The notes beneath the pieces are model-generated. The model ran no database searches. It was given only the letters and a program-made list of their open reading frames with translations, and was not told the origin of the DNA. This document shows positions 1 through 16,420 of a stretch of 34,617 nucleotides of DNA, piece after piece (the stretch's first letter is position 1; every line of letters begins with the position of its first letter). This stretch comes from Planctomycetota bacterium (lineage in GTDB: Bacteria > Planctomycetota > MHYJ01 > JACPRB01): positions 1-34,617 of the forward strand of contig DATLZA010000008.1 in the NCBI GenBank assembly GCA_035574235.1. The letters are read 5' to 3'. The position numbers and the translations under genes are program-made.

Positions 1-212
1 CGCCCGCCCGCCGACAAAAACACCGCATCGATCCCGCGCCGCAAAAGCTCCCTCCGCGCCCCCGACGTGAGCTCCACCTGCCCCATCACCACCACCAGCC
101 CCAGCTCCGCAAACGCCACCCTCCGCGCTTCCCGACCTCCCACCGACAGAACCAGCGCGTCCCCCTGCACCGAAATCTCAGCGCCCTGCTCGCTCACCAC
201 CAGCGTCCGCAT
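1..212 (-). CDS. cas1: Cas1 integrase, N-terminal part (cut by left window edge)
   Basis: Only about 70 residues are present. They read as the beta-rich N-terminal domain of Cas1, the metal-dependent integrase that inserts new spacers. Visible landmarks are the opening MRTLVVSEQGAEI, the segment VVVMGQVELTSGARRELL, and RRGIDAVFLSAGG, which match the family pattern 'G-x-V-x-L-T ... L-x-x-x-G-I-x-V-x-F-L'. The start is the ATG at 212, because GGAGG sits at 219-223 with a 6-base spacer. It overlaps the end of the upstream primase-polymerase gene by 35 bases, so it belongs to the same operon. There is no reverse transcriptase or Cas6 fusion at this N-terminus. The catalytic C-terminal domain, and probably cas2 and the CRISPR array, lie beyond the left edge. 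Identification is from pattern only. Confidence 0.88.
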   Translation of the reverse strand, partial: MRTLVVSEQGAEISVQGDALVLSVGGREARRVAFAELGLVVVMGQVELTSGARRELLRRGIDAVFLSAGG

Positions 213-1992: not shown

Positions 1993-3227
1993 GCCTCCAG
2001 CCTCGGGAAACGCAGCCGCTCCAGGTCCCCTTCCTCAAGTCCCGCAAGCCGGCGCAGCGACTCCGAAAGCTTCAGGTACGTCTCTTCGCCCACCGGCTGG
2101 AAACCGTGCGCCAGGATCGACTGATTCCGGGCCACGAGGACGGACTTTTTCGGATCGTGCAGACCCAGCTCCTGAAAGCGCCGACCGAGCTCGTCCCCCT
2201 GGGCCGCCAGAAACTGGTAGGCGTCCTGTAATGCCAGCTTCACGGAAGCTCCCGTCCGGCCCGCCCGCATCGATTCCGGCAGCGCCTCGAGCGGCACCTC
2301 GGAGGTCTTGAGACCATATTTTTCCTCAAGACGGATCTGGGCGGTCGCCTCGATCGCGCGGTAGCAGACGGCCACCGCCTCGTCCACCCGCCCCACCTCG
2401 AAGCGCCGCTTGGCGTTGGCCGCCAGATCCCGTACAAAATCCGACGACGGGCGCTCCCGGGAGGCGGCCAGCCGGCACACATGATCCAGGTGCTCTTCGA
2501 CCTTGCGGCGAACCTCGGCGGCGTTGTGCAGCACTTCGCCGACAAAAGCGGCTTCGCGGAGATACTCCTCCCAGCGCGGAACGGCGTCCGCCGGCCGGAA
2601 CGCATCCCAATGCGCGTACCCCTCCGCCAAAGCGGCCACGGCTCCCAGGAGTCTTTTGACCACCTGGCTGGCCGTTGTCTTCAGGCTGTCTCGAAGAAGC
2701 CGTCCGGCCGCCGCCACGTAGCCGCCGTTGAAAAGCGCCGCCGCGTCCTCGACGGCCTGGTAGCCGAACGCGTCCAGCGGATTGGGACGCGCGTAGAGCC
2801 GTTCGGAGCCCGTTTCGACCACTCCGAGGCCGTCCTTCGTGCGCCGATCGCCACCCACGTAGAGAAACTCGGCAGGCCATCGCCGGGCGGCCAGAAGGAG
2901 CGCCGCCGACATGACCTTGGTCCCTCCCGTGTAATCGGCCAGCACGCCGGCACGGTTGCTCACCCAGTCGGTCACCTTCGGCGTCAAAGCCCGCAGGTGA
3001 CGCACCGCATCGGTCAGGTCCTCAGGATCGGGAAGCAGAAGCAGTTCCCAGGAAACGCCCTTCCCGAGAGCGGGCAGGATCTTCTCCTCGACGACACGGC
3101 GGCTGCCCGGCGAGACGATGAAAACGACTCGATCCGGAGTTCGCTCCGTTAGAGCGTGCAGAATGGGCTCCGGAGAGGATCCGACCGTGGCGATGTAGAG
3201 GACAGGCGGCTTCGACTTCGCGGTCAT
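1989..3227 (-). CDS. CARF-HEPN CRISPR ancillary nuclease, TIGR02710 type (Csm6/Csx1-like)
   Basis: This 412-residue protein has an N-terminal CARF (Rossmann-like) domain: the first strand and loop YIATVGSSPEP at 11-21 and the ligand motif DYTGGTKVMSAAL at 98-110. These are the hallmarks of the TIGR02710 family (Pfam Cas_Cas02710). The helical C-terminal half holds RNQSILAH, giving R367-x6-H374, the R-x(4-6)-H signature of HEPN ribonucleases. In type III systems such proteins bind cyclic oligoadenylate made by Cas10 and then cut RNA, so a cOA-triggered RNase is expected here. The gene starts in an ATGA overlap with the preceding CARF gene and ends in one with the primase gene. Its own ribosome site is weak, so it probably depends on coupling. 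Which cOA ring it prefers cannot be read from sequence. Confidence 0.85.
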   Translation of the reverse strand: MTAKSKPPVLYIATVGSSPEPILHALTERTPDRVVFIVSPGSRRVVEEKILPALGKGVSWELLLLPDPEDLTDAVRHLRALTPKVTDWVSNRAGVLADYTGGTKVMSAALLLAARRWPAEFLYVGGDRRTKDGLGVVETGSERLYARPNPLDAFGYQAVEDAAALFNGGYVAAAGRLLRDSLKTTASQVVKRLLGAVAALAEGYAHWDAFRPADAVPRWEEYLREAAFVGEVLHNAAEVRRKVEEHLDHVCRLAASRERPSSDFVRDLAANAKRRFEVGRVDEAVAVCYRAIEATAQIRLEEKYGLKTSEVPLEALPESMRAGRTGASVKLALQDAYQFLAAQGDELGRRFQELGLHDPKKSVLVARNQSILAHGFQPVGEETYLKLSESLRRLAGLEEGDLERLRFPRLEA

Positions 3228-4288
3228 ATCCGGCGTACCTGAAACATTTTGAGATACTCTGCGACCAGGGCGGTCTGAGCCTCACCCTGCGCCGTCGTTT
3301 CAACCCGGAGGGGCAGAACTTCGCCGCTGCGCTCGTAGCGCACGAAGATGTGTCCTCGCTCGGCGTCGGCAAGGCGTACCCGGGCGCCCCGGCCCGCTTC
3401 CCCATCGAACCGCACATAGCGGACGCAGTCGATCGAGCAGAGCCAGCGCACAAAATTCTCCCAGCCGGCCGGTCTTTCATGCGCGACGCCGGAGAGCCCG
3501 TTTTTCTCGGCCGGCGAACGAGGATCGGCCTGGGGCCACACCACGCGGGGACGGCGAGGATGGAGCACAGCATGACAGAGGAGGCTTCCGGCCACGGTGA
3601 GGTAGGTGTTTCCGTCCTCGGCCGGGGCCGTCAGAAAACGTAGCTCGGGATTTCCCTTGAGCCATTCCTCGACTTTCTCCGTGGGCCGGGGCTCCTCGTC
3701 GATCCACTCGAAGAACTTGCGATTCCGAAGGACGATTTCCTCATTCCATTGAAGAGGCAGACGCGGAATCCGAACGAGCTCGTGGTGCCGCTCGTGGAGG
3801 TACACGACTTCCACGCCGGCCAAGGCTCCGAGGAGGGTAAGGAAAGCCGATTCCGGCTTATAGCCGCCGGTCGCCGCCAGAACGATCTGCGCCCCTTTGT
3901 CCTCCGATTCCCTGATTCTTCGAAGAAGAATGTCGATCATGCTTTTGAGACCTCGGGAGAACGCTTGCGGCTCCGCGGTGAGGCCGGTGATGATCTGAAC
4001 CTCGCCCCTGATCCCCAGGTTTTCGTAATGATGCTGGAGAGCCTGGGCGCAGAAGCATCCTTCGGGCGTTTCGGAGCAGAGAAAAAAGAGGGCATCATCG
4101 GTGCCGACTTCGAGCCGGTGGAGAGTATGGATCTCAGCGGACGCCGCTGCCGGATCCGCCCTGCGGAGCCAATGGATGACGTCGGCCTCCGGAGGCAAAT
4201 CCTGACCGTGTTTCCATCCGCCCCAGGGACGGTCATCGCGGTTGGTTAGAAGCGAAGTCCCTACGGTTACAAGAATGTGACGCGGCAC
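3224..4288 (-). CDS. CARF-domain CRISPR accessory protein, APE2256 type, with C-terminal RelE-like candidate effector
   Basis: The opening PRHILVTVGTSLLTN and the motif VLAATGGYKPESAFLTLLGAL (TGGYK at 140-144) identify a CARF domain of the APE2256 class (Pfam Cas_APE2256), which binds cyclic oligoadenylate. I place the start at a GTG (4288), because GGGAGG lies 7 bases upstream and the CARF strand begins at once; this gives 354 residues. Residues about 205-245 look like a winged-helix linker. Residues 255-354 include GHIFVRYERSGEVLPLRVETTAQGEAQT, which resembles RelE-type mRNA-interferase domains found on some CARF proteins; this last point is tentative. No HEPN R-x4-6-H and no PD-D/ExK is evident. 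It follows cmr6 by 13 bases and overlaps the next CARF gene (ATGA). A ring nuclease is the main alternative. Confidence 0.8.
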   Translation of the reverse strand: MPRHILVTVGTSLLTNRDDRPWGGWKHGQDLPPEADVIHWLRRADPAAASAEIHTLHRLEVGTDDALFFLCSETPEGCFCAQALQHHYENLGIRGEVQIITGLTAEPQAFSRGLKSMIDILLRRIRESEDKGAQIVLAATGGYKPESAFLTLLGALAGVEVVYLHERHHELVRIPRLPLQWNEEIVLRNRKFFEWIDEEPRPTEKVEEWLKGNPELRFLTAPAEDGNTYLTVAGSLLCHAVLHPRRPRVVWPQADPRSPAEKNGLSGVAHERPAGWENFVRWLCSIDCVRYVRFDGEAGRGARVRLADAERGHIFVRYERSGEVLPLRVETTAQGEAQTALVAEYLKMFQVRRI

Positions 4289-4301
4289 GGCTTTTCCTCC
4301 C

Positions 4302-5495
4302 TTAGGACGTTCCCTTCTTTCCCGCTGCCGGGGCGGAAGGGCCCGGCGGGACCCACCGAAAGTTGATATTCCCTCCTTCCTGGCTCGATACCGAGTCGAC
4401 CAGAACGAAAACGCGCTGTCCGGCAGTCCAGTCCCCCGGCGCATCCTTCGAATTGACGATGAAGCCGATGCGGCCGCTCGCCAGGTGACATACCTTCCAG
4501 GTCCCCTTCTTGGGATTCTTCTCACGCAGTTCGACCTCGACTCGATCGCCCCTTTTGAGGGACGGCGCCGGAAGGGAAGGGGCGGACTCACGGCGCGGCG
4601 CGGCAGCTGCAGTTTCCGCCGTTCCGATTTGAAACACTCCGTAGCCGGCCGTTTTCTTGGCGCCCAGACCTCGATCTTTGAGCGCTTCCCCGAGCGCCGA
4701 CCTCAGCCGTGCGCCCAGGGATTCCGCCGGCTCCAGGTCGGACCCGCGGGCCGGAAGAACCGCGGCGCGAAACCTCCACTCCACTCTCGCCGGTACGGAA
4801 AGAAAGGGAACGGGATTCGGCCCTTGGTCATCGGTGGACCATCTCTTTCCCTCGGGGTAGTACTCCTTGTAGTGGGGCGTCAGGTAGTCGACCTCGAGCC
4901 GGCAGGTCAGAGGAAAAGCGTCGAAGAAGATCACTCGGCCGGCCTTCTCCTGCGTCCCGAAAAGCGTTTCGGCCAACTTCTTGTCCTGAGGATGAACAAC
5001 CGCCCGGACCGCCCCCTTGATTCCGCTTCCCGGAAGGTACGGAACCCCGTAGAGGGGGTGGAACATGAACCCCGTTTCGAGCGCATGCGGCTCCCCCAGG
5101 CGCGAAACCAGCCGGGAGGTCAGAACCGCCGATTCCGAGACCACCGCGGCGCCGAGCGACCTGAGGGATTCAAGCGCCGCATCAAGGCGCCGGTGGATCT
5201 CGCGCAGAAGCGACTGGTCGGCAGCTCCGCTTTGCTCGGCCATCTGCCTCAAGAGATTGCCTTTGCTGTTTTTCAGGGTTCTGTCCGGCGGCCGCAGAGG
5301 CATCCAGCGCTGAAAAAGAAGCCCCAGGTTGGCCGGCGGACCGGCGCGCCGAACGACCTCCTCCGCCCACCTTTCCACCGGCAGCTGCTGAACCCGGAGG
5401 GCATCCGCGGCGTCCCGGGGGACGCAGAGGGCAAGCAACACCGGCGTCTCTTTCGGACGCTCTCTTGGGGCGGGGTCGAAGGATCCATTTCTCAC
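4302..5495 (-). CDS. cmr6: Cmr6 (Cas7-like backbone subunit) with a C-terminal OB-fold-like extension
   Basis: Cmr6 caps the end of the type III-B crRNA-bound filament. The RAMP signature LPGSGIKGAVRAVV is at 154-167 and the late glycine motif GLGAKKTAGYGVF at 276-288. At 397 residues it is longer than usual. Residues about 289-312 are an Ala/Pro-rich linker, and 312-382 form a small beta-rich domain with alternating hydrophobics (GDRVEVELREK, GRIGFIVN, GQRVFVLVDSV) that resembles an S1/TRAM/OB RNA-binding fold. The catalytic core looks intact, so this is an added module and not a frameshift. The gene starts in an ATGA overlap with cmr5 and is followed after 13 bases by a CARF gene with its own ribosome site. 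The Cmr6 call is firm; the OB call is an inference. Confidence 0.9.
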   Translation of the reverse strand: MRNGSFDPAPRERPKETPVLLALCVPRDAADALRVQQLPVERWAEEVVRRAGPPANLGLLFQRWMPLRPPDRTLKNSKGNLLRQMAEQSGAADQSLLREIHRRLDAALESLRSLGAAVVSESAVLTSRLVSRLGEPHALETGFMFHPLYGVPYLPGSGIKGAVRAVVHPQDKKLAETLFGTQEKAGRVIFFDAFPLTCRLEVDYLTPHYKEYYPEGKRWSTDDQGPNPVPFLSVPARVEWRFRAAVLPARGSDLEPAESLGARLRSALGEALKDRGLGAKKTAGYGVFQIGTAETAAAAPRRESAPSLPAPSLKRGDRVEVELREKNPKKGTWKVCHLASGRIGFIVNSKDAPGDWTAGQRVFVLVDSVSSQEGGNINFRWVPPGPSAPAAGKKGTS

Positions 5496-5896
5496 GGGGC
5501 CCCTCCTTTCCCCCGCGCCTCCCCGCCCTCCTTCACCCTGGCCCGCACCGCGCGCTTGAGCCAGGCCGCATAGGCCAGCGCCTCCTGGGTGGCCGCGCGA
5601 TAGATGAAGGAATCCTCGTCCGCCAGCCGTCCGAGAAGGTCATCATTTTTCGACTTCCAGCCGATCTGATCGGCACACCCCTGATGGAGCCACTCCTGCA
5701 AGACCTTGTAGGTCCACGTGTGAGGGTCGTCGCTTTTGGCCCTGAGAAACGCAAGCGTCGGCCCCAGCCCCGAGGCCATGATCATGCTGGGGAGCGACTC
5801 GACGGTGCTTTTATGTTCCTTCGTCAGGGGCGTCGTCGCCACCTTTCCAAGGACATGCTGAGCCCGACGCTGATCCATCGTCTTCTCGCCGCTCAT
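5492..5896 (-). CDS. cmr5: Cmr5 (Cas11, small subunit)
   Basis: This is the small helical subunit of the Cmr complex that lines the filament and helps hold target RNA. The 134 residues match the family pattern: MDQRRAQHVLGKV at the start, KSTVESLPSMIMASGLGPTLAFLRAK in the centre, and a helical end rich in Ala and Leu. The start is the ATG at 5896, six residues before the Met of MDQRR, because GGAGG stands 6 bases upstream and the ATG overlaps the cmr4 stop as ATGA. It is next to cmr4 and cmr6, as in most III-B operons. Longer starts would run into cmr4 and add sequence with no family resemblance. Nothing is missing for a protein of this family. Confidence 0.92.
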   Translation of the reverse strand: MSGEKTMDQRRAQHVLGKVATTPLTKEHKSTVESLPSMIMASGLGPTLAFLRAKSDDPHTWTYKVLQEWLHQGCADQIGWKSKNDDLLGRLADEDSFIYRAATQEALAYAAWLKRAVRARVKEGGEARGKGGAP

Positions 5897-6807
5897 CGGG
5901 CGCCTCCTTTCTCCATGAACTTCAGCCGCACGATTCCGCGTCCCGTCGTGGCGTCCGCCCCCGTCTGCATCCGCGCCCCGTCCAGGTCGGTCCTCAGTTT
6001 GTTGAGAATCGCGGCGGCATCCCCCAGACCGTTCGTCTTGCCCCTTCCCCCGAAGGGGTCCGCCGCCGCCAGCGGCACATAGAAGAGCGAATCGCAGGGG
6101 ACGAACTCGGCCTGAAAGAGAGCGCCGTCGGCAACCGTACCTTTCGTGTCGTCGATCCTCGTATGTGCCTCGACGACGGTCGAGGTCCGGACGAAGTACT
6201 GGAAGTCCGTTTCCGGAAGGAGCACGAGGTGGCTCGTGATCCGTTCCGCCCAGTACCCCTCGGCGACGGCGTTCTTCCGAAGCCACTCGGCCACGGCGTC
6301 CAGGGCGGAATCGGGTTTCGCCGCGAAGCGGCTTTCTTCCAGAATCACGGCCGCCGGGGAGCTCTCGAGCACCAGGCTGCTTTTCGTGGTGACCCGGGCT
6401 CCGCTTTTCTCCGGCTCCGTCAGCTTCCAGTCCCGGACCTCGGCGTCCCTCGCCAGCCGCTCCAGGGCCGGCCGGCTTGTGGCGTACGCGAACGTTCCGC
6501 GCAGGCTCCGGATGGGGAACAGGATCAGCTTCGCGTCCCCGAACGCCACGGCGCCGGCGAATTTATCCGCCTCCGCTCCCGTCTCGGGTCCGAAGATCGT
6601 TTCCAGGTGCGCTCGGCGGTCCCTGTCCGATTCCTTCCGATAGAGAAGGTCGCGCACACTTCCTTTGATGCCGGCCCCCTGGCCCATGGGGTAACCGGTA
6701 TGGCGCTCCCTCTGAATGGGCAGATCGATCGCGCCGATGCTGGACCCCGTTCCCCAGTGCACCGGCGTTTCCGCATAAAGAAAAAGCAGCGCCTCACGCT
6801 TGAACAT
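5893..6807 (-). CDS. cmr4: Cmr4 (Cas7 backbone subunit, target-RNA nuclease)
   Basis: Cmr4 is the repeated backbone protein that cuts target RNA every six bases. From the ATG at 6807 (304 residues) the N-terminus carries HWGTGSSIGAIDLPIQRERH, in which D28 matches the catalytic aspartate of known Cmr4 proteins, followed by the RAMP loop GQGAGIKGSVRDLL. The C-terminal glycine motif ADATTGRGIVRLKF is also present. The start is chosen because GGAGG lies 8 bases upstream and the family begins right before the first beta strand; an ATG 30 bases earlier is less likely. It overlaps the end of cmr3 by 14 bases and the start of cmr5 by ATGA. With D28 kept, target RNA cleavage should be active. Confidence 0.94.
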   Translation of the reverse strand: MFKREALLFLYAETPVHWGTGSSIGAIDLPIQRERHTGYPMGQGAGIKGSVRDLLYRKESDRDRRAHLETIFGPETGAEADKFAGAVAFGDAKLILFPIRSLRGTFAYATSRPALERLARDAEVRDWKLTEPEKSGARVTTKSSLVLESSPAAVILEESRFAAKPDSALDAVAEWLRKNAVAEGYWAERITSHLVLLPETDFQYFVRTSTVVEAHTRIDDTKGTVADGALFQAEFVPCDSLFYVPLAAADPFGGRGKTNGLGDAAAILNKLRTDLDGARMQTGADATTGRGIVRLKFMEKGGAR

Positions 6808-7921
6808 AATCCCAACCTCCGACCAACACGATTCCAAATCCTTCCTGAGCTCCGACGTCCGAAACCGATCGGGCGTGGTACTTCTGAACGGGATCGCCCC
6901 GCTCCAGCTCGAAGTAGTACACCGCTCCAGCGGGAACCGCGAGACGCAGGGGTTTGGCGCTCCTGGCCGCGATATCCCAGCCGGACACAGGGACCATCGT
7001 CGGCAAACGCACGCCGACGAGCCGGGCGCGCACGTCCCCGTCGTCCAGAACCCAGCCGTTTTCTCTCTTGCAGATCCGGGAAGGCTTCCACCCTGCTGTC
7101 TGCCCCTCCATGAAGATGGCCGGCGTCACGAACGTCCAGGCGAACCGGCCCTCCCGCATGAAGCCGGCGGGCCAGCGACCTGCCGTGGATTTCTCCCACC
7201 GTGCCATGCGCCCCTCTCCGCCGAGGCGAAGAATCCCCTTATCCCGAAGAGGCGCGACACCCTCGCCTTCGACCGCCACCGCAAGACGAACCCGCTTTTC
7301 CTCGTTCAGGCGGACCATCCGGAGCGAATAGAGCATTCCCTCTCTTACGGTGCGCGTGCCGCCGAGAGCGATTCCAAAGCGCCTTTCGGTTCCCCAGAGC
7401 GCCTCCGCACAGACCGGCTCCCCCGGAATCCCGCCGGAAAGCCAGGCCTCCATGTCCCGTGCGGTCAGATAGACCGGCCCTTCGAGCTTCTCCCCCGTTC
7501 CCCGGCCCGCCTCGATTTTCCAAAGCGAGCGGAGCCCCTCCCTGGCCAGCGACGAAGAGAACGGAAGCCGATCCCGGCCCAGCGGAGCCCACCGCCAGAC
7601 CCTCTCCTGCGAAAATTCGAGATCCGCAGGCGCCGGGAAAAGAAGATCGTTCCCGCGTCGCAGGAACGGCCCTTTGAAGCTCACGCGGAAAGCCGCCTCT
7701 CCCGGCCGGCCCCACACCTCGGCGGCCGGCCCTTCCAGCCGCCTGGCGGAGAAGTCCGCTCCGTACGAGGCCATCGCGGCCGTCCGGAGCGCCCCCGCCG
7801 TCACCGACGGCAGCGGCGGGAAGATTCCCTCCGCGTAATTTTCGCTCCCGGCTCCGAAAGGACGGGCGTCGCGGAAGAAAAGCACATCCACCGGCTCCAG
7901 ATCCACCCATCGTTCGCTCAT
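6794..7921 (-). CDS. cmr3: Cmr3 (Cas5-like subunit)
   Basis: Cmr3 is the Cas5-type subunit that grips the 5' handle of the crRNA and contacts Cas10. The 375 residues begin with the family's typical WVDLEPVDVLFFRDARPF, then GIFPPLPSVTAGALRTA, and end with GFGIVLVGGWDYVQA, the late glycine-rich segment of the group. Length is normal. The start codon overlaps the cas10 stop as ATGA, so its translation is probably tied to that of Cas10, which suits two proteins that form a 1:1 head. No catalytic role is expected. Confidence 0.92.
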   Translation of the reverse strand: MSERWVDLEPVDVLFFRDARPFGAGSENYAEGIFPPLPSVTAGALRTAAMASYGADFSARRLEGPAAEVWGRPGEAAFRVSFKGPFLRRGNDLLFPAPADLEFSQERVWRWAPLGRDRLPFSSSLAREGLRSLWKIEAGRGTGEKLEGPVYLTARDMEAWLSGGIPGEPVCAEALWGTERRFGIALGGTRTVREGMLYSLRMVRLNEEKRVRLAVAVEGEGVAPLRDKGILRLGGEGRMARWEKSTAGRWPAGFMREGRFAWTFVTPAIFMEGQTAGWKPSRICKRENGWVLDDGDVRARLVGVRLPTMVPVSGWDIAARSAKPLRLAVPAGAVYYFELERGDPVQKYHARSVSDVGAQEGFGIVLVGGWDYVQA

Positions 7922-10671
7922 TCGTCACGCTCCCGGGCGAGGAACTCCGCCGCCGCAACGAGACGGACCAACTGGGCGCTCGGCCAAAAGTATTCCTCCG
8001 GATAGCCCGACGGGTGCCGGGGCTCCTTGAAGCGTTTCAGGACCGCCTCGAGCGCCGCGGAAACTTCCTGCGCGATCCGCTCCTTCTCTTGGCAAAGGAT
8101 CTTTCCCTGCGCCTCCTCGGAGGCGCCCCCCGCCATGTAAAGATGCCTCCGCAGAAGCCACAGGATCTGCTCCTGGCGGGCCTCCGGCTCTCTTTCGAGA
8201 AGGGGAAGCGACTCCTCCAGGTGGCCCACAAACTTCCGTGAAAGGAAGAACCGGGCGCCGGGAAGCTCCTGGCTGGGTCTTCCACGGAAGACGCCGGCCA
8301 CGAGGTCCATGACGTCGAGCGCCGCCCAGTGGAAGCAGAGAACCTCCCGATCCCCCGAACGCTTCAGGACCGCCAGGCCCACCGCGTTCTTCTCCGGGGC
8401 GGACTTGGCGAGCTCCTCGCACTCCCGCGCCGCCTCGAGGGCCAGGCGCATCGGGCTCTTCGCATGCGCCACGGCGATTCCGGCGCTCAGGGTCGCCTGG
8501 GGGCCCAGAAGCCGGTAAAGCTCATGGCGGCCTCTCTCGAAGCGCGCGAAGCCGTTCCGCATACGTGCCCCTGGGATTCCGATCTCGCGATCCCCTTCTT
8601 CACGCTCTCCGGCGAACGCATAGCGGATCATGCGCGCGATCCTCGGAAGGGGCTCCAGCGGAAGAAGCGCCAGCACATCGTCTCCGCCGGCATAGACCAG
8701 CGCCCCCGGCCCTGCCTTTTCGACGACGTGGGGGATCACATGGCGGGCGAAGTCCCGAAGCGCACGGCTGAGAGCCGCCTGGTACGCGGGGGCGTACGGA
8801 CGCTTCACGTCTCCGAACGGCAGGTGGCCCATCACCTTCTGGTGAACCACCTCATCGTAGGAGGGGCAGCGTTCCCCCGAGAGCCACTTGCCCATTCCGT
8901 CGCCGTCGGCGACCAGAACCGCGTAATAGCGGCGCGGTTCGACAGGAAGGTGAAGCTCCTGCAGAGCCCCCCGCAGCTCGCGCAAGGCCTCTACAAGGTC
9001 CCTGCTTCCCTCCTGGCCGTCCGCCGACACGGCATCGAGATACAGCCAGCGGGCGTCCGCGTAAGCCAGATCCTCTAGGATTTGCCAGGAACGCAGCTTC
9101 TCGTGCGTATGGTCGGGGATCCAGTATCGCTCCTTATCTTTGTCCACCTGCGACACGGCGGACCGCACCTTTTCCAGCGCGCTCCGCAGCCTGTCCGTGC
9201 CGGCCGCACGGCTTTCGAGGGTTTCCGCCAGACGCTCGAACCAGGGCGCCGCCGCCAGCGTGGAGGTGGAAGGGAATCCCTGACCGTGTACCCGGCGGTC
9301 GCGGCCGAGCCGACGTTTGACCGTACACACCCCGCACAGCCGATCGACCCGATCCTCGTCCCTTGGATCTTCCCAGACCGCCGAACGCAGGCCGCAGAGA
9401 TGGCAACGGTGCCTCCCTTCCTCCTCCTCCACCGCCCGCACCCTAGAGGCCTTGACCGAATCGAGCGAGAGACGCGCCAGGTCTACGAGGCTTCCGTACG
9501 CCGCCCCCGAATTCAGGAACCGAAAAGCCGCCGATTCCTCCTTGATCTGCTTCAGAAAGGCCGACTCCTTACGCGTCCAGTTCTGAACTTTCCGCCACCA
9601 GGACAGAAGCTCCTCTTTGCCCTTTCCCTCCTTGTCCGTGAAAAGACGCTTCCAGGGGACGGCGCTCCAGTACGTCTCGATCGCCGACAGGAGCTGAGCC
9701 CTGCCCTGCTCCTTGAGTTCCGCGGCGTACTTTTTCGCTTCTCCTTCGAGAAACTCCTTGACGCCCCCTTCCGCCGCCGCCGCGAGCTTCTCCACCTTCT
9801 CGAGAGGGACGACCGCCAGGAACTGGTTCGGCAGCGAAGGAATCCGAAACGCTTCGTCCTCCGGTTCGCAGTCCTTCACTCCCTCTTTCGCGAGCCAGCG
9901 GTCCACTTGCGGGTGTCCCCACACGTCGGGGAAGATGACGGCGTCCGGACCCAGCTCGGAGGCCACCGCCAGGAGCGCCCGGGCCAGGAGCTCGGACAGG
10001 AAAACCGATCCCGCCCAGAGGTCCGCGCTTTTCCGGGCCGCCGCGATCAACGACTGCACGGGTCCCAGAGCGAAGAAAAAGAGGGCAGGATCGTCCCCTG
10101 CGCCCACCAGCGCCGAGGTCAGGCGGGCATGCTCCCAGATCGAGTGATCCGGAATGCGGCTGTCCGCGGGAAGGAGGCTCCAGAGAAGTCCCAGTTCTTC
10201 CTTCCGCCCCCCCGAGTGAAACCGCCCGTCCATGAGGTACCGAGGCAGGAGGCGCCAGAGCGCGAGATAGCGCATCCAAAGGTTCGAATACTCCTTCTCG
10301 ATATGTCCGACGGCTTCCCGTACGGAGGCGGACACCGTTTCCCAGTCGGTGGAAATGAGCGTGTCCTTCCGGCAATCGTGCGGAGCCAGGTCATACGTGC
10401 GGCCGGACAAGGGATGGGTGAGCTGGGGATTCTCGCGCCAGCCGACCGCGTACTTCTTGCGATCTTCAAGAGGAAACCGGTCCGCGCCGGCGGCCATGCG
10501 GTCCGCCTGCCGGACCGCCTCGGGAATTTGGGGCTCGAGGCCCGCGGCCGTCAGGAGCTCTTTCGCCACGTCTTCATGCGGCGCCGCAAACAGGATCCCT
10601 GCCTTTTCCGGAGGATCGTGCAGAAGCGCCGCGATTTTGAGCCGGAGAATACGCTCGTCGGTTATGGCCAT
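7918..10671 (-). CDS. cmr2: Cas10 / Cmr2, signature subunit with HD domain and GGDD cyclase palm
   Basis: This is the large subunit of the type III-B complex (917 residues). The N-terminal HD-like domain shows LHDPPEKA (H18, D19), a second His at 32 (PHED), and DHSIWEHARLTSAL (H175, H181). A zinc knuckle follows at C423-x2-C426 ... C446-x2-C449. The first palm has VADGDGMGKWL (588-597), and the second palm has VYAGGDDVLALL with GGDD at 662-665. Once target RNA binds, such proteins make cyclic oligoadenylate from ATP at GGDD, and the HD domain cuts single-stranded DNA. Both sites keep their key residues. The two CARF effectors further down the operon fit the cyclase function. GGAGG lies 9 bases before the ATG. 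The gene overlaps cmr1 by 10 bases and cmr3 by ATGA. Confidence 0.96.
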   Translation of the reverse strand: MAITDERILRLKIAALLHDPPEKAGILFAAPHEDVAKELLTAAGLEPQIPEAVRQADRMAAGADRFPLEDRKKYAVGWRENPQLTHPLSGRTYDLAPHDCRKDTLISTDWETVSASVREAVGHIEKEYSNLWMRYLALWRLLPRYLMDGRFHSGGRKEELGLLWSLLPADSRIPDHSIWEHARLTSALVGAGDDPALFFFALGPVQSLIAAARKSADLWAGSVFLSELLARALLAVASELGPDAVIFPDVWGHPQVDRWLAKEGVKDCEPEDEAFRIPSLPNQFLAVVPLEKVEKLAAAAEGGVKEFLEGEAKKYAAELKEQGRAQLLSAIETYWSAVPWKRLFTDKEGKGKEELLSWWRKVQNWTRKESAFLKQIKEESAAFRFLNSGAAYGSLVDLARLSLDSVKASRVRAVEEEEGRHRCHLCGLRSAVWEDPRDEDRVDRLCGVCTVKRRLGRDRRVHGQGFPSTSTLAAAPWFERLAETLESRAAGTDRLRSALEKVRSAVSQVDKDKERYWIPDHTHEKLRSWQILEDLAYADARWLYLDAVSADGQEGSRDLVEALRELRGALQELHLPVEPRRYYAVLVADGDGMGKWLSGERCPSYDEVVHQKVMGHLPFGDVKRPYAPAYQAALSRALRDFARHVIPHVVEKAGPGALVYAGGDDVLALLPLEPLPRIARMIRYAFAGEREEGDREIGIPGARMRNGFARFERGRHELYRLLGPQATLSAGIAVAHAKSPMRLALEAARECEELAKSAPEKNAVGLAVLKRSGDREVLCFHWAALDVMDLVAGVFRGRPSQELPGARFFLSRKFVGHLEESLPLLEREPEARQEQILWLLRRHLYMAGGASEEAQGKILCQEKERIAQEVSAALEAVLKRFKEPRHPSGYPEEYFWPSAQLVRLVAAAEFLARERDE

Positions 10672-11630
10672 GCGACTACGCCTCCGAAGTTCCTGGCGAA
10701 GCGATCGACTTCATTCCAGTTGCGCAGATCCATGGGAATCACCGATGGGAATGGGCTTTTGAGGACCGTGAGCACTTCCAGGACTCCCCTGTCTCCCCGC
10801 AGGATCCGAAAATGAGCAGGGCTGGCCCAGCGCACGTCCCTCCCGCCGATGGTGGGATGTCCCGCGCGGGGTTTGAGATACGGAAGCCCCCAACTTGGCG
10901 ATTTATAGCCCCTGAGGGCGATCATGATGTCCCTCCGTGCATTCTCCGCATCGGCGGCACTGCCTCGGCGCACCCGGATCGATGCGCACGCGTGGGGAGC
11001 CGGGCAGAGCATCGGAAACGGCGCTTCCCCGGAATGAGCAGGCTGGCCCATGTTGCGCTGGAGATGTTGGATGGTGCCTCTGATCCACTGGGCGAGTCGC
11101 TCCGGGTCCTGAGGGAGCGGGTTGCGGTACCGTTCCTCGAGGTCCTCCGGGGCTTCCAGCACCTGCACGTCGAAGGATCCCGCTCCCCGACGCGAGCGCT
11201 GTCCCAGCCCGCCCAGCACCGTGGCTAGGCGCAGAATGCAGATGGCTTCTCGGAGACTCTCGCGGGAGCCGTCTATTCGAACACGGTACGTCCGATTCGG
11301 AGAAAGCGCCGTCGAGGGTGACTTCCGCTCCGGACTGTGAGGAAGCAACGGATGTTGCCGTGTTTCCTCAGGCGTGACGCCGTCGACCCGAAGCCGAACG
11401 CGCGAGGCCCACTCGGTTTTTCCCCAGAGTTCGCTTTCCTTCCTGAAAAGCTCCTTCGGGTTGCCGAAAAAAGGACCGTAGACCGCCCGCGTCCAGAACC
11501 GGAGCACGCCGCGGAGCGAGGGAATGCGGAACTCCGCTTCCCCGCGGGGTTCCCGCTCCGCTTTCCCGGGGGGTTCCCGGTGAATGAACGCGGGGGTGAC
11601 CGTCTTGAATTCAATCGTTGCTTTTCCCAT
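10662..11630 (-). CDS. cmr1: Cmr1 (Cas7-like subunit)
   Basis: Cmr1 sits at the 3' end of the crRNA in the Cmr complex. The 322 residues open with IEFKTVTPAFIHR and the family motif FRIPSLRGVLRFWTRAVYG, in which S-x-R-G-x-L-R-F-W is diagnostic. The glycine/arginine loop LGGLGQRSRRGAGSFDV is the second family mark. Length fits a single-domain-pair Cmr1. The start at 11630 lies 20 bases inside the end of cas6, with GAGGG upstream, and the stop overlaps cas10 by 10 bases. No catalytic residues are expected. Confidence 0.92.
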   Translation of the reverse strand: MGKATIEFKTVTPAFIHREPPGKAEREPRGEAEFRIPSLRGVLRFWTRAVYGPFFGNPKELFRKESELWGKTEWASRVRLRVDGVTPEETRQHPLLPHSPERKSPSTALSPNRTYRVRIDGSRESLREAICILRLATVLGGLGQRSRRGAGSFDVQVLEAPEDLEERYRNPLPQDPERLAQWIRGTIQHLQRNMGQPAHSGEAPFPMLCPAPHACASIRVRRGSAADAENARRDIMIALRGYKSPSWGLPYLKPRAGHPTIGGRDVRWASPAHFRILRGDRGVLEVLTVLKSPFPSVIPMDLRNWNEVDRFARNFGGVVAWP

Positions 11631-12579
11631 CGACCGCCCTCAGCTCATATCGCCCAAGGCCGAACGAAGCGTTCTTGCCCAGATGAAGCCACTGGCCCGC
11701 CACCAACCAGGGGCGCCAGGCCGAAAGCGCCCCCCGCAGTCGGAGGGTCCCGATCACTCCTCCGAGGGACATGCGCGTCTTCTGCCGCCCGGAATAGCGC
11801 GGCGCTTCCTGCCAGCGCCGGTCCTCCCAGCGGTACTCCAGCGTTTCCGCTTCCCGCGCCAGGTGCCGCGCCGGCTCCTCCACGGAGCCTCCTCCGTAGA
11901 AGGCCGTCATCGCCCCCACCCGCCGCAGAAGGGCGCGCAGCACCGCCGGCCCGTCCGGCTCCTGCTGAAGCCGCCCTCCCGACGTGATCCGCGCCGGCGT
12001 CCGGAACACCAGCCGCGCCTCGCCGTCGAACTTGGGAACCCGGCGCTCCAGCTCCGAAAGCGGCAGCGGCCGCGCCCGCTCGGGAAGTCGCTCGGGCCGA
12101 AGGACGATCCGCCCCGCCCCCTGCTCTTCCTCCACCCTCTCGATGGCCACCGGCACCCGCTCCCGACCGAACCCCGTCCGTCCGCCCCGCTCCAGCGCCG
12201 CCACGACGTGCCCCGCCATCCGCGCCGCCCAACCGATCAGCGTCACCCCGACCGTCCAGAAGTCCCCCGAACGAAGCTCAGTCCCTGCACTCTCCCAGCG
12301 CAGGACATAGGGCGGCGGAATCGTCCGCTCCCCCTCCAGAACCCCGATCCCCTGAGGCCGCACCGGCTCCAGGACGCACGGATAGGCGCATCCGGCGCGC
12401 AGGACGCAGCGCAGGCAATCCCGGTGTTCCGCCACGCAGACAAGCTCCTTCAGAGCCCGCCCCAGAACGCCGCGGATCATCGAGCCCGGAAACTCGGGGA
12501 TCCGGAAATCCCCTTCGAGCCGAAATACGATGCGCAGCGGCAGAACTTCGATCGGAGGCCACGAGACTCCGAAATCCAT
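11611..12579 (-). CDS. cas6: Cas6-type pre-crRNA endoribonuclease (PF10040 group)
   Basis: This RAMP protein cuts the CRISPR transcript within its repeats to give crRNAs. The N-terminal ferredoxin-like half has PLRIVFRLEGDFRIPEFPGSMIRGVLGRALKEL, followed by a cysteine cluster (HRDCLRCVLRAGCAYPCV) common in this subgroup. The C-terminal half ends in the glycine-rich RNA-binding loop GKNASFGLGRYEL. I start the gene at the ATG at 12579 (322 residues), where the first recognisable strand follows closely and GGGAGG lies about 10 bases upstream. A start at 12687 would add sequence without family features and would sit inside the predicted promoter. It is the first gene of the leftward operon and overlaps cmr1 by 20 bases. 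The catalytic histidine cannot be assigned with certainty. Confidence 0.88.
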   Translation of the reverse strand: MDFGVSWPPIEVLPLRIVFRLEGDFRIPEFPGSMIRGVLGRALKELVCVAEHRDCLRCVLRAGCAYPCVLEPVRPQGIGVLEGERTIPPPYVLRWESAGTELRSGDFWTVGVTLIGWAARMAGHVVAALERGGRTGFGRERVPVAIERVEEEQGAGRIVLRPERLPERARPLPLSELERRVPKFDGEARLVFRTPARITSGGRLQQEPDGPAVLRALLRRVGAMTAFYGGGSVEEPARHLAREAETLEYRWEDRRWQEAPRYSGRQKTRMSLGGVIGTLRLRGALSAWRPWLVAGQWLHLGKNASFGLGRYELRAVDGKSND

Positions 12580-12659: not shown

Positions 12660-12687
12660 TTTTTAACACACGACGGCGCGTTGTCAA
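12660..12687 (-). promoter_or_regulatory. Sigma70-type promoter of the CRISPR operon
   Basis: On the minus strand a perfect -35 TTGACA (12682-12687) is followed by 16 bases and TAAAAA (12660-12665). TGT directly precedes the -10, giving an extended -10. The start of transcription would fall near 12653, about 74 bases before the cas6 ATG. It lies in the 216-base space between the sigma54-type regulator and cas6, so the operon can be expressed without the regulator. This is a pattern-only prediction. Confidence 0.6.
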
Positions 12688-12795: not shown

Positions 12796-14550
12796 TCAGG
12801 GCGCCGGGCGTCGGCGCGCGCGGAAGAGATCGGAGTCGAGCGACTTCACCCCGAAGTGCTCTCGGAACCAATTCTCCCGGAAGTCCGGGTCCGACCGCCT
12901 CGGGCCCGCCTCCACCTCGTACTGAGCCCTGGCCAGAAGAATGAACCTCTCGAGATCCTTCGGAGGAAGATCCGCCTTCACCCGATCATAGGTCGTGCGA
13001 CGGTGCAGAACCTCCCGCAGTTTCAACCGAGCCCGCTCCCACTCGTCCTCCGCGCCGTTCGCGCGATCCCGCGCTTCGTCCACGAGGCGCGCCAGTTCCG
13101 TTTCCGACCATTTTCCAGAGCGGACGCCGTCGACGACCCAGCGAAGAAGGACGTTCCTCAGCTGGCGGACGTTTCCAGGCCAGCAACAGTCCTCCAGGAG
13201 CCGCACCTCCGTCTCCCTGAAGGGGCGGAAGGGGACGCCCTCCTCCGCGCAGATTTCCCGCAGCAGGTCCTCCGCCAGCAGGGGCAGATCCTCCCGACGC
13301 TCGCCGAGGGAAGGAAGCCGGATCGTCAGAGAGGCGATCCGATAATAGAGGTCCTCTCGAAACCGCTTCTCGCGCACCTCCGTCCACAAGTCCCGGTTGG
13401 TCCCCACGATGAAACGGGCCTTCGTATTCCTCGTTTTGCTTTCCCCGAGGCGGGAGTATTCCTTCCGTTCGACCAGGGTCAACAAGGCCGCCTGGGCGGT
13501 CGGGCTGAGGCTGTCGATCTCGTCGATGAAGAGCGTCCCTTCCCGGGCCGCTTCGACGGCGCCGGCCCGAGACCGTTCGGCCCCCGTGTAGGCACCCTCT
13601 TCCGCCCCGAAAAGCTCCGAGTGCAACAAATGATCCGGCTTGGCGGCGCACTGATAGATCACGAAAGGTTTGGCCTTTCTCGGTCCGTTTTCATGAATCG
13701 CCTGAGCCAGAACCCCCTTGCCCGTCCCGGTGGGTCCCTCGAGGAGCACGCAATGACCCACCGTCGCGTAGCCCCGGGCCCGCTCCACCGCCTCCTTCAT
13801 CTTCGGATTCCGGGTGCGGATCCTCCCGAACGTCACGAGGTCCTTCTCATCCCGCGGGGGGCGATACAGCCGCTCCGTCTCGAGCGCGGCGAGGTTGGGG
13901 ACATGGACGCGCAGCTCGCGGAGAAACTCGGACGCTTCCTCGGCACTCGAGATCCTCGTCCCGATCGCGTCCCGCATCCTCCGCGTAACCCCGGAGAAAT
14001 CCATCAGCGGAAGCTCGACCAGGACGTACCGGCTCAGTTCAAAGTGGAGCGCCGGCGAGCGCTGCTCCTCGTCCGTGAGGCCCGTCGGGAGAACGTGGAC
14101 CACGCGCCGCACCCCGAAAAGCTGGCCCGCGATCGCCGCCACCGCGCTTTCCGTCTTGCGCCCGCCGGCCAGGCACACCTCCACCTCCAGGCCGGCGTCG
14201 CCGGCCTGGACGATGCGGAAGGCGAGCTCGCCGAGGAGCGCCTCGTGGGCTCCTGGATGGTCAAAGTCGTTGAATGGAAAAACGCCGCATCGAACGTCCA
14301 CGGGCCCGGCAGGGTCCGCCTTTATGCCTGGAACTCGACAGGGATAGCGCGTCTGAAGAATTTCCATATCCCCCGAACGTCGGCCGCCCTCGAATTCGTC
14401 GAGAATCCGTCTTCGGGACTCCGTAACGCGGGGACTCGACGTGCAAAGAAGGATCACCTCCCGAATCGCCCGCCGCTCTTCGAAAAAATACTTGTCGAGC
14501 GCCTCGGTTACGACCGCAGGAGTGACCCCGACCGTGCAGATCAGACGCAT
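12796..14550 (-). CDS. CARF-sigma54 AAA+ transcription activator (RtcR-like architecture)
   Basis: This 584-residue protein joins a nucleotide-sensing CARF domain to a sigma54 activator. Residues 1-195 are CARF of the NE0113 kind: ICTVGVTPAVVTEAL at 4-18 and CLAGGRKTESAVAAIAG at 126-142. The AAA+ part has Walker A GPTGTGKG (272-279), the sigma54-contact loop GAYTGA (319-324), Walker B GTLFIDEID (338-346), the arginine-finger segment RFREDLYYR (396-404) and WPGNVRQLRN (457-466). All are intact, so it should hydrolyse ATP and open sigma54 promoters. The last ~100 residues show no clear Fis-type helix-turn-helix. RtcR, the known protein of this layout, governs RNA repair, but no rtcA/rtcB is seen here. 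Instead it sits directly upstream of a Cmr operon and downstream of a sigma54 promoter. Sensing of cyclic oligoadenylate or RNA ends is inferred. Confidence 0.88.
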   Translation of the reverse strand: MRLICTVGVTPAVVTEALDKYFFEERRAIREVILLCTSSPRVTESRRRILDEFEGGRRSGDMEILQTRYPCRVPGIKADPAGPVDVRCGVFPFNDFDHPGAHEALLGELAFRIVQAGDAGLEVEVCLAGGRKTESAVAAIAGQLFGVRRVVHVLPTGLTDEEQRSPALHFELSRYVLVELPLMDFSGVTRRMRDAIGTRISSAEEASEFLRELRVHVPNLAALETERLYRPPRDEKDLVTFGRIRTRNPKMKEAVERARGYATVGHCVLLEGPTGTGKGVLAQAIHENGPRKAKPFVIYQCAAKPDHLLHSELFGAEEGAYTGAERSRAGAVEAAREGTLFIDEIDSLSPTAQAALLTLVERKEYSRLGESKTRNTKARFIVGTNRDLWTEVREKRFREDLYYRIASLTIRLPSLGERREDLPLLAEDLLREICAEEGVPFRPFRETEVRLLEDCCWPGNVRQLRNVLLRWVVDGVRSGKWSETELARLVDEARDRANGAEDEWERARLKLREVLHRRTTYDRVKADLPPKDLERFILLARAQYEVEAGPRRSDPDFRENWFREHFGVKSLDSDLFRARRRPAP

Positions 14551-14767: not shown

Positions 14768-14842
14768 CTACCTCCGAAACCTCTGGAATACGCACACGCG
14801 GTGATTCCCAATGTTTCCGCAGACCCCACGACGCGTAGCCAT
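14768..14842 (-). CDS. Candidate 24-residue basic peptide behind the sigma54 promoter
   Basis: This short ORF begins 28 bases after the predicted sigma54 transcription start. A perfect AGGAGG (14851-14856) stands 8 bases before its ATG, one of the best ribosome sites in the window. The product has six arginines and two cysteines, starts MATRRGVCGNIG and ends QRFRR. I do not recognise it. It could be a leader peptide that couples translation to folding of the downstream RNA, a small regulatory or toxic peptide, or the remnant of a gene once controlled by the regulator. The strong ribosome site argues for translation, but the short length and lack of known relatives keep confidence low. Confidence 0.4.
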   Translation of the reverse strand: MATRRGVCGNIGNHRVCVFQRFRR

Positions 14843-14880: not shown

Positions 14881-14896
14881 TGCAAGCCCTGTGCCA
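14881..14896 (-). promoter_or_regulatory. Sigma54 (RpoN) -24/-12 promoter
   Basis: On the minus strand TGGCACAGGGCTTGCA matches the sigma54 consensus TGGCAC-N5-TTGCW in every defined position, and the invariant GG and GC are exactly 10 bases apart. The transcription start would be near 14869. Transcription runs through the 24-codon ORF and leader into the CARF-sigma54 gene, so the activator probably controls its own expression. A chance match this good, in the only intergenic gap before a sigma54 activator, is unlikely. Confidence 0.8.
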
Positions 14897-15114
14897 CGTG
14901 AGCGCCCTCCTCGGGGAGCGCACGTCGGAGGCCGAACGTGCAAGAAAACCTTGCCGCTCGTTGGAAAATCTTGCAGAGGTGGGCTCAAACCGACAGGGGG
15001 TCCGCGGATCGCTTCGGCTATGATCCGGAGCGTCGCTTCTCCCCACCCGATGATCGTGACACCCGCGCAGGTCCCGCGCCGCCTGACCCGCCCGCTGCCG
15101 GTGCGACGCTCTTC
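14897..15114. other. Gene-free stretch upstream of the sigma54 promoter
   Basis: About 220 bases between the sigma54 promoter and the end of the recombinase gene. It holds the candidate activator sites at 14920-14954. Beyond these I see no gene, CRISPR repeat or recognisable RNA. Confidence 0.5.
14920..14941. promoter_or_regulatory. Inverted repeat, candidate activator-binding site (UAS)
   Basis: GCACGTCGG (14920-14928) and CCGAACGTGC (14932-14941) form an inverted repeat with one extra base, 38-59 bases upstream of the sigma54 -12 element. CACGTG at 14895-14900 repeats its core. Activators of sigma54 bind such dyads upstream of the promoter, though usually further away. A second small inverted repeat, GCAAG-N5-CTTGC (14940-14954), adjoins it. 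Confidence 0.4.
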
Positions 15115-16260
15115 TTATGACCGCCCAGCAGGCGGCTGATCCGGGCCGTCCGCCCCCCCCGTCTGCCGAGGAGCGACCAGGGGCGGCGGAGCGCCGCGCC
15201 GCAAGGCGTTCTGATCCGTGTACCAGCGAAGCAGCGTCCGGAGGGAGCCGGGCGCGTGCCCGATATAGGCCGCCAAGGCTTCCACCTCCATGTGCTGGGG
15301 GCCCGGCGCCGCATGCTCGCTGCAGAAGAAGTGGCGGAAGTCGTAAAGGGTAACACGGATCGATTCAGGAACCTTGCCCTTCTCGTCCGCAAGCGCACGC
15401 AGGAGCATGTGGTACACGCTCCGTTCCTTGTACACCGTGCCCGCAGCCGTGGCGAAGATGGGCAACGACTTGTCGGACATCTTGGCCACGCGCTCCTGCA
15501 GGATCTTGGCGGCGGTCGCGTTGAGTTCGATCACGCGTCTTGACCACTTGCTTTTCAGCTGGCGTCCTTCCCAAGGGACGATCGACAGGAGCTTTCCACG
15601 GAGATCCATCCCCCGCACGCCGAGCAGCTCGGAGGGGCGCATCCCGGTCTCGGCGAGCACCGCAGCGAAGTCGCCCAGCCAGGGGTGGCCCTGAAGTTTC
15701 TGGAGGACGGCCTGGATCTTTTCGGTGCTGGGGGCCTCCTTCGTCGTTTCCTCATCCTTCGGCTTCTCGATCGCCCGGCAGACGTTCCAATCGACGCCGC
15801 CCTTTCGAGCCGCGATCCAGCGGAGGAACGCGCGCACGCGGGCGAAATCGCTTCGAACCGTGAGAGCCGAACGGCCGTCGGAACGCTCATCGACCCAACG
15901 CTGAACGTGTTCGCGCGTCACCTCCCGGACGTCCCGTTCGGCACCGACCGATTCGACAAAGAGGCGGACGATGGGAAGCGCGCGCTCCGCGCCGGCAGGA
16001 CGCCGGTTCTTCTGGTACCACTCTTCGTACTCGTCGAACACTTTTCCCAAAGTGAGCGCCGAAGGGGGTTTGGGGATCCGAAAGGAAGGCACCCCTTGCT
16101 CGTCCTGCTGGAGGGCTCGACGCATCGCCTCCTCAGGATCCGAGGTGTCAAGCGAGCGCCGCACTTGGCGCCCGTGGGTACACTTTTCCACGTACCAGAC
16201 GGTGCCCCGCTTGACAATCCGGAGGCCTCTCCGTATCTTTACCGCTATGCGTTGGCCCAT
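15115..16260 (-). CDS. Tyrosine-type site-specific recombinase / integrase
   Basis: The protein has 381 residues from the ATG at 16260, which has GGAGG 8 bases upstream; an ATG 27 bases earlier is possible. The N-terminal half is a SAM-like core-binding domain (about 70-160). The catalytic half shows the first arginine in ETGMRPSELLG (R208), a lysine in LKSKWSRR, YDFRH (R309, with Tyr in place of the usual His of H-x-x-R), YIGHAPG (H335) and the nucleophile in LLRWYTD (Y347). The set appears complete for DNA cutting and rejoining by a 3'-phosphotyrosine. It reads away from a tRNA-Phe gene 84 bases off, the classic setting for integration at a tRNA. It may mark the right boundary of an island carrying the CRISPR block, or be an unrelated insertion. 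Confidence 0.88.
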   Translation of the reverse strand: MGQRIAVKIRRGLRIVKRGTVWYVEKCTHGRQVRRSLDTSDPEEAMRRALQQDEQGVPSFRIPKPPSALTLGKVFDEYEEWYQKNRRPAGAERALPIVRLFVESVGAERDVREVTREHVQRWVDERSDGRSALTVRSDFARVRAFLRWIAARKGGVDWNVCRAIEKPKDEETTKEAPSTEKIQAVLQKLQGHPWLGDFAAVLAETGMRPSELLGVRGMDLRGKLLSIVPWEGRQLKSKWSRRVIELNATAAKILQERVAKMSDKSLPIFATAAGTVYKERSVYHMLLRALADEKGKVPESIRVTLYDFRHFFCSEHAAPGPQHMEVEALAAYIGHAPGSLRTLLRWYTDQNALRRGAPPPLVAPRQTGGADGPDQPPAGRS

Positions 16261-16333
16261 CGTATCCCCCTCCGAAGGCGGGATCATTCTACCCCATTTA
16301 GGACACTCTAGGACACCAAAAATAAAACCGCGT

Positions 16334-16339
16334 TATAAC
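16334..16339 (+). promoter_or_regulatory. -10 box of the tRNA-Phe gene
   Basis: TATAAC ends 5 bases before the mature tRNA. The matching -35 (GGACAC, 16311-16316) is poor, and it lies within the 8-base direct repeat TAGGACAC (16299-16306 and 16309-16316). With normal spacing transcription would begin at or next to the first tRNA base. Confidence 0.35.
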
Positions 16340-16344
16340 GGCGT

Positions 16345-16420
16345 GGACAGGTAGCTCAGCTGGTAGAGCACTGCACTGAAAATGCAGGGGTCACCGGTTC
16401 AACTCCGGTCCTGTCCACCA
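16345..16420 (+). tRNA. tRNA-Phe (anticodon GAA)
   Basis: A full cloverleaf is visible: acceptor GGACAGG pairs with CCTGTCC, D stem GCTC with GAGC, anticodon stem CTGCA with TGCAG around loop CTGAAAA (anticodon GAA), a 5-base variable loop, and T stem ACCGG with CCGGT around TTCAACT. The discriminator is A and the CCA end is encoded. Total length is 76. It lies next to a tyrosine recombinase, on the side of the tRNA's 5' end, whereas most elements sit at the 3' end. Confidence 0.97.

Follow-up and report, generated by a model that had tools for sequence, protein, structure and literature searches.

A predicted sigma54 promoter and a CARF-AAA+ activator gene leading a type III-B CRISPR operon in a Planctomycetota bacterium

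Gene content of the locus

The window, by which we mean the whole analyzed stretch of 34,617 nucleotides from a Planctomycetota bacterium, contains an RNA-targeting type III-B CRISPR locus, in which Cas10/Cmr2 is encoded together with Cmr1, Cmr3, Cmr4 and Cmr6. The cas genes lie downstream of a gene for a 584-residue regulator and on the same strand. From the regulator onward, the genes are:

12796 to 14550, minus strand: regulator, 584 aa, with an NE0113-type CARF domain (about residues 1-185), a sigma54 AAA+ domain with GAYTGA (246-473) and a C-terminal region (474-584)
11611 to 12579, minus strand: cas6 (PF10040; start taken as the ATG at 12579 rather than the TTG at 12687)
10662 to 11630, minus strand: cmr1, by profile matches
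7918 to 10671, minus strand: cas10/cmr2 with HD and GGDD motifs, by profile matches and motifs
6794 to 7921, minus strand: cmr3, by profile matches
5893 to 6837, minus strand: cmr4, by profile matches
5492 to 5896, minus strand: probable cmr5, by position only
4302 to 5495, minus strand: cmr6, by profile matches
3224 to 4342, minus strand: APE2256-type CARF protein, by profile matches
1989 to 3227, minus strand: Csm6-like CARF-HEPN protein (TIGR02710)
178 to 1992, minus strand: CRISPR-associated primase-polymerase (type A1), by profile matches
3 to 203, minus strand: start of cas1, truncated by the contig end

Residues 10-157 of the regulator match the CRISPR CARF family NE0113 (E = 5e-12), and residues 246-473 comprise a sigma54-interaction AAA+ domain with its lid (PF00158, 3.6e-56). 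The sigma54 loop reads GAYTGA, which is of the GAFTGA type found in sigma54 activators; Walker A and B motifs and an arginine-finger region can also be recognized. The CARF domain bears the GGRKT motif common to other CRISPR CARFs. A lysine or arginine follows its strand 4, as expected at the sequence level of a sensor of cyclic oligoadenylate (cOA), and Cas10 of the same locus has the GGDD motif; we infer that cOA is the ligand. The C-terminal 110 residues (474-584) contain no recognized helix-turn-helix (HTH) and matched no Pfam family at E values of up to 10, and binding of the regulator to an enhancer is therefore put forward as a proposal only. No close orthologue of the regulator was found in genome contigs (searched with a single-protein query), the 119 nearest genomes, plasmids or viral contigs. 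Long PF09623 matches in other Planctomycetota were set aside, because those inspected were, by reading, CARF-adenosine-deaminase-like.

A predicted sigma54 promoter upstream of the regulator

14881 to 14896, minus strand: sigma54 -24/-12 promoter TGGCACAGGGCTTGCA, predicted from the pattern match, genome enrichment and the presence of rpoN

Read from 14896 to 14881 on the minus strand, TGGCACAGGGCTTGCA is the sole match without mismatches to TGGCACN5TTGCW in the window. The predicted transcription start is at about 14870, 12 nt past the C of the -12 element. The preliminary description of this DNA had seen a full fit to the consensus here. The exact GG-N10-GC spacing holds, but base 7 is an A in place of the G found at 12 of the 14 sites in the genome, and this deviation makes the site one of the two least typical in that set. 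The same description had also proposed looking for rpoN and for other such sites in the genome, and both were found. The gene for sigma54 is present in a single copy, and the strict pattern gave 14 matches in the whole 4.06-Mb genome versus one with a reversed-pattern control; thus, -24/-12 sites occur far above chance in a genome that has rpoN.

Of the remaining 13 sites, at least six are located a short way 5' of plausible starts, and the genes behind these sites include prepilin-like, ClpB-like, response regulator and Hsp20-like ORFs (names by reading). The genome-wide enrichment, together with the location of sites before sensible starts, indicates that sigma54 promoters are used in this organism and that the site in the window is probably not a random match. 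Taking motif, spacing, enrichment and rpoN together, we regard the assignment of 14881-14896 as a real -24/-12 sigma54 promoter as a solid prediction from sequence.

Repeats upstream of the promoter

14964 to 14974, minus strand: tandem repeat 1, GCAAGATTTTC, candidate activator site centered at about -99
14944 to 14954, minus strand: tandem repeat 2, GCAAGGTTTTC, candidate activator site centered at about -79; half of the dyad GCAAG-N5-CTTGC at 14940-14954
14920 to 14941, no strand: imperfect dyad GCACGTCGG-AGG-CCGAACGTGC, seen in the sequence and not above chance

The tandem pair GCAAGATTTTCC / GCAAGGTTTTCT (pattern GCAAGRTTTTCY) is spaced exactly 20 bp apart, and an equally good pair arose in 12 of 500 shuffles. 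This significance is only modest, and the motif was derived from the pair itself. Positions -79 and -99 are roughly where sigma54 enhancer sites are usually located. The sequence GCAAGNTTTTC has 10 copies in the genome compared with 13 in the control; elsewhere in the genome, none of its copies is accompanied within 300 bp by a sigma54-like site of similar strength.

Inverted repeats at 14920-14954 had been proposed to bind the activator. Such repeats do exist (GCACGTCGG-AGG-CCGAACGTGC and GCAAG-AAAAC-CTTGC), but dyads with 5-bp arms in this region are not above chance (381 of 500 shuffles do equally well), and we rejected the dyad as the activator site. The tandem pair appears to be a modestly better enhancer candidate than the dyad. 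Comparison of several loci for a common enhancer motif returned only short or AT-rich matches, from which we make no claim.

Leader and reach of the predicted transcript

14768 to 14842, minus strand: 24-codon ORF MATRRGVCGNIGNHRVCVFQRFRR, preceded by an AGGAGG ribosome site and placed before all other ORFs on the predicted transcript
12660 to 12687, minus strand: sigma70-like promoter TTGACA-N16-TAAAAA before cas6, under the threshold of the scanning tool

As originally described, the promoter points toward the activator gene, but the first reading frame behind it is the 24-codon ORF, and the regulator ATG (14550) follows only at about +321 from the predicted start. The short ORF begins at about +29 with the Shine-Dalgarno arrangement AGGAGG-N7-ATG. 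It has no family match, and its GC content at the three codon positions (0.52/0.52/0.68, versus 0.70/0.47/0.79 in the regulator) is without coding-like bias. The leader is not unusually structured, with a fold z of -0.73, a value on which we rejected a structured leader RNA.

No terminator-like structure was found on the minus strand between 15200 and 12400. Read-through from the sigma54 promoter into the CRISPR genes, suggested at the outset, is thus compatible with the common strand and the uninterrupted interval, but not as the only route to cas expression, since a separate sigma70-like promoter precedes cas6.

Related arrangements in other genomes

A CARF-alignment pattern scan of a species-level genome collection yielded 55 confirmed loci. 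When all of these were scanned for a sigma54 AAA+ domain, two, L050 (WOR-3) and L054 (Bacteroidetes), proved to have one fused in frame to the CARF domain. The CARF of the window has its best match in L050. In that locus, the CARF-AAA+ gene overlaps by a few bases a cas6-like gene, which is followed by a cas1-like gene, while cmr1-, cas10- and cmr3-like genes are divergent (names by reading). Adjacency of regulator and cas6 is thus common to the window and L050. The intergenic sigma54-like site in L050, TTGGCATGCAGTTTGTA, points away from the regulator and is weaker; it is one mismatch from the consensus of its own genome, where 39 matches at one mismatch or fewer were found versus five in the control. 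Short repeats lie upstream of this site and small ORFs downstream. In the same intergenic region (L172:13498-14270), three small ORFs of 80, 70 and 67 aa lie behind the divergent site; two of them are glycine-rich and hydrophobic. They possibly encode small membrane proteins. When the WOR-3 phylum was searched with the whole fusion, only generic sigma54 activators were found besides the genome of L050.

The L054 protein is a CARF-sigma54 activator with a Fis-like HTH (by reading), and no cas genes were recognized by reading within 12 kb of it. A second CARF protein neighbors it (L054:4065-7617), the C-terminal half of which is RelA/SpoT synthetase-like by reading.

A split form of the arrangement is seen in two other Planctomycetota (L110 and L111), with the gene order [membrane-like ORF]-[CARF-histidine kinase]-[NtrC-type response regulator]-[Cas6b]. 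In both, TGGCAYN5TTGCW occurs just 5' of the CARF-kinase operon, and the -24/-12 motif is enriched 50:3 and 50:1 over the control in the two genomes. In L111, RAMP genes and cas10 additionally precede the operon, with a second -24/-12 site directly before cas10. The rpoN gene was found in the genomes behind L050, L054, L110 and L111. On these sequences, we have moderate confidence that a sigma54 site recurs before CARF/sigma54 sensor operons.

NE0113-type CARF-histidine kinases lie beside cas genes at L109:9260-14225, L110:12465-17144 and L111:193-4353; in L109, the protein encoded after the kinase has 1130 aa and matches a receiver domain weakly. The arrangement in the three loci is possibly a CARF two-component system.

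Proposed mechanism and alternatives

We propose, with about even confidence, a CARF-gated, sigma54-dependent positive feedback on a type III-B superoperon headed by its own activator. Cas10 would sense foreign RNA and make cOA, which would bind the N-terminal CARF domain of the activator. The AAA+ domain would then remodel sigma54-RNA polymerase at 14881-14896, possibly from the tandem GCAAGRTTTTCY at about -79/-99. Firing of the promoter would produce more activator, and read-through would produce more Cas6, Cmr complex and CARF effectors, while the sigma70-like promoter before cas6 would provide basal cas expression on top. Action of this activator on this promoter, the existence of positive feedback and read-through as far as cas6 are the parts of the scheme that we infer. 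Several observations weigh against it: the roughly 320 nt and the short ORF that separate the regulator ATG from the predicted start, the sigma70-like promoter of cas6, a C-terminal region in which no HTH is recognized, the lack of a close orthologue in the genomes searched, the weak L050 site pointing away from its regulator, and the modest significance of the repeat pair.

The main rival to CARF-driven feedback is that the promoter is real and chiefly yields a short transcript and the 24-codon protein as the principal output of the activator, with the regulator and the cas genes using their own promoters. The short ORF is well placed for this: its distance of +29 is comparable to the 3-109 nt at which sigma54 sites elsewhere in the genome precede the starts they drive, an AGGAGG-N5-9-ATG arrangement occurs only four times in the window, and the sigma54-like site of L050/L172 also precedes small ORFs with ribosome sites. 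Against it, the 24 codons show neither a family match nor coding-like GC bias, and no terminator-like structure was found before the regulator on this strand. We consider this explanation rather unlikely.

It is also unlikely, to our judgment slightly more so, that another enhancer-binding protein fires the promoter, in which case there would be no autoregulatory loop and the CARF activator would work elsewhere. The source genome does encode another sigma54 AAA+ protein (L011), and the regulator is without a recognized DNA-binding domain. Against this, the lack of any other genomic -24/-12 site near a copy of the repeat suggests a dedicated activator, and in L110 and L111 the CARF/sigma54 operons have sigma54 sites in front of them as well. 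That the -24/-12 match is a functionless coincidence, the regulator being served by an unrecognized promoter, seems very improbable to us. About one chance match is expected in this genome, and the deviation at base 7 puts this site among the two least typical of 14; but a random match would have had to fall on the right strand, a few hundred bases before the gene of a sigma54 activator, and analogous sites are present at L110 and L111.

If positive feedback through the CARF-AAA+ activator is the correct reading, the window may belong to a class that has gone unreported, in which a cOA-sensing CARF is wired to sigma54 transcription, either as CARF-AAA+ (Planctomycetota, WOR-3) or as CARF-kinase plus NtrC-type regulator (Planctomycetota), at the head of self-amplifying sigma54 operons. 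We advance this broader proposal tentatively, somewhat short of even confidence. Type III CRISPR systems are mostly viewed as signaling to nucleases and other toxic effectors. Sigma54 promoters are silent without an activator, and a CARF-sigma54 pair would, if the proposal is true, act as a stringent switch through which the same alarm leads to the production of further immune complexes. Both designs, a single protein or a kinase with a regulator, make the idea testable and show where more cases may be sought.

Comparison with known systems

The regulator shares with RtcR the domain order, CARF followed by sigma54 AAA+, and the RtcR model gives its best NCBIfam score. However, this score is 248.6 against a cut-off of 650 (NF038308), well below what an RtcR equivalog would reach. 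The CARF domain belongs to the CRISPR family NE0113 with GGRKT, which E. coli RtcR lacks. RtcR (CARF-AAA+-HTH) activates the RNA repair operon rtcBA from a promoter pointing away from its own gene, whereas the promoter in the window points toward the regulator, and the genes around the regulator include no rtcA or rtcB, but III-B cas genes instead. According to Makarova et al. 2014 (PMC4012209), strand 4 is not followed by a charged residue in most RtcR CARFs, and these domains may have different ligands. Oligoadenylates do not activate RtcR (PMC9650030). An AAA+ tree failed to part the regulator from RtcR: the window and L050 proteins paired at 97/92, but both are long branches and an RtcR clade was not rejected. 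By sequence, the AAA+ domain may therefore still be kin to that of RtcR.

Csa3 (CARF-wHTH) likewise uses a CARF sensor to couple cOA to the transcription of CRISPR genes (PMC9704534, PMC8844856), but it binds DNA directly via its winged HTH and is mainly associated with type I-A, in contrast to the sigma54 AAA+ ATPase and -24/-12 promoter seen here. In the CalpL/CalpT/CalpS system, type III cOA also leads to a sigma-factor-based transcriptional response (PMC11229360); there, a SAVED-Lon protease relieves the sequestration of a sigma factor by its anti-sigma factor, whereas the window would employ sigma54 and an ATP-dependent activator. The nearest operon-level parallel is provided by the CoCoNuT superoperons headed by RtcR homologues, in which a CARF-sigma54 activator is the first gene of a long same-strand defense operon (PMC11090510). 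These differ in having an RtcR-like CARF, type IV restriction genes and, as proposed ligand, RNA with cyclic phosphate ends. In the literature that we searched, control of type III CRISPR by a CARF-sigma54 activator is not described; the 2020 CARF classification, which lies outside that search, may list such fusions.

Surroundings of the operon

Upstream of the CRISPR operon, a tyrosine-recombinase-like integrase (by reading) adjoins a tRNA-Phe gene (15115-16420), a pairing that suggests a mobile island. An island bounded by a duplicated tRNA end was rejected for the window, as no tRNA stretch of at least 12 nt recurs in it. Elsewhere in the genome, a second cas1 lies in a 624-residue frame (G000:C178:9279-10130, L173), and would represent either a second CRISPR system or a fused Cas1.
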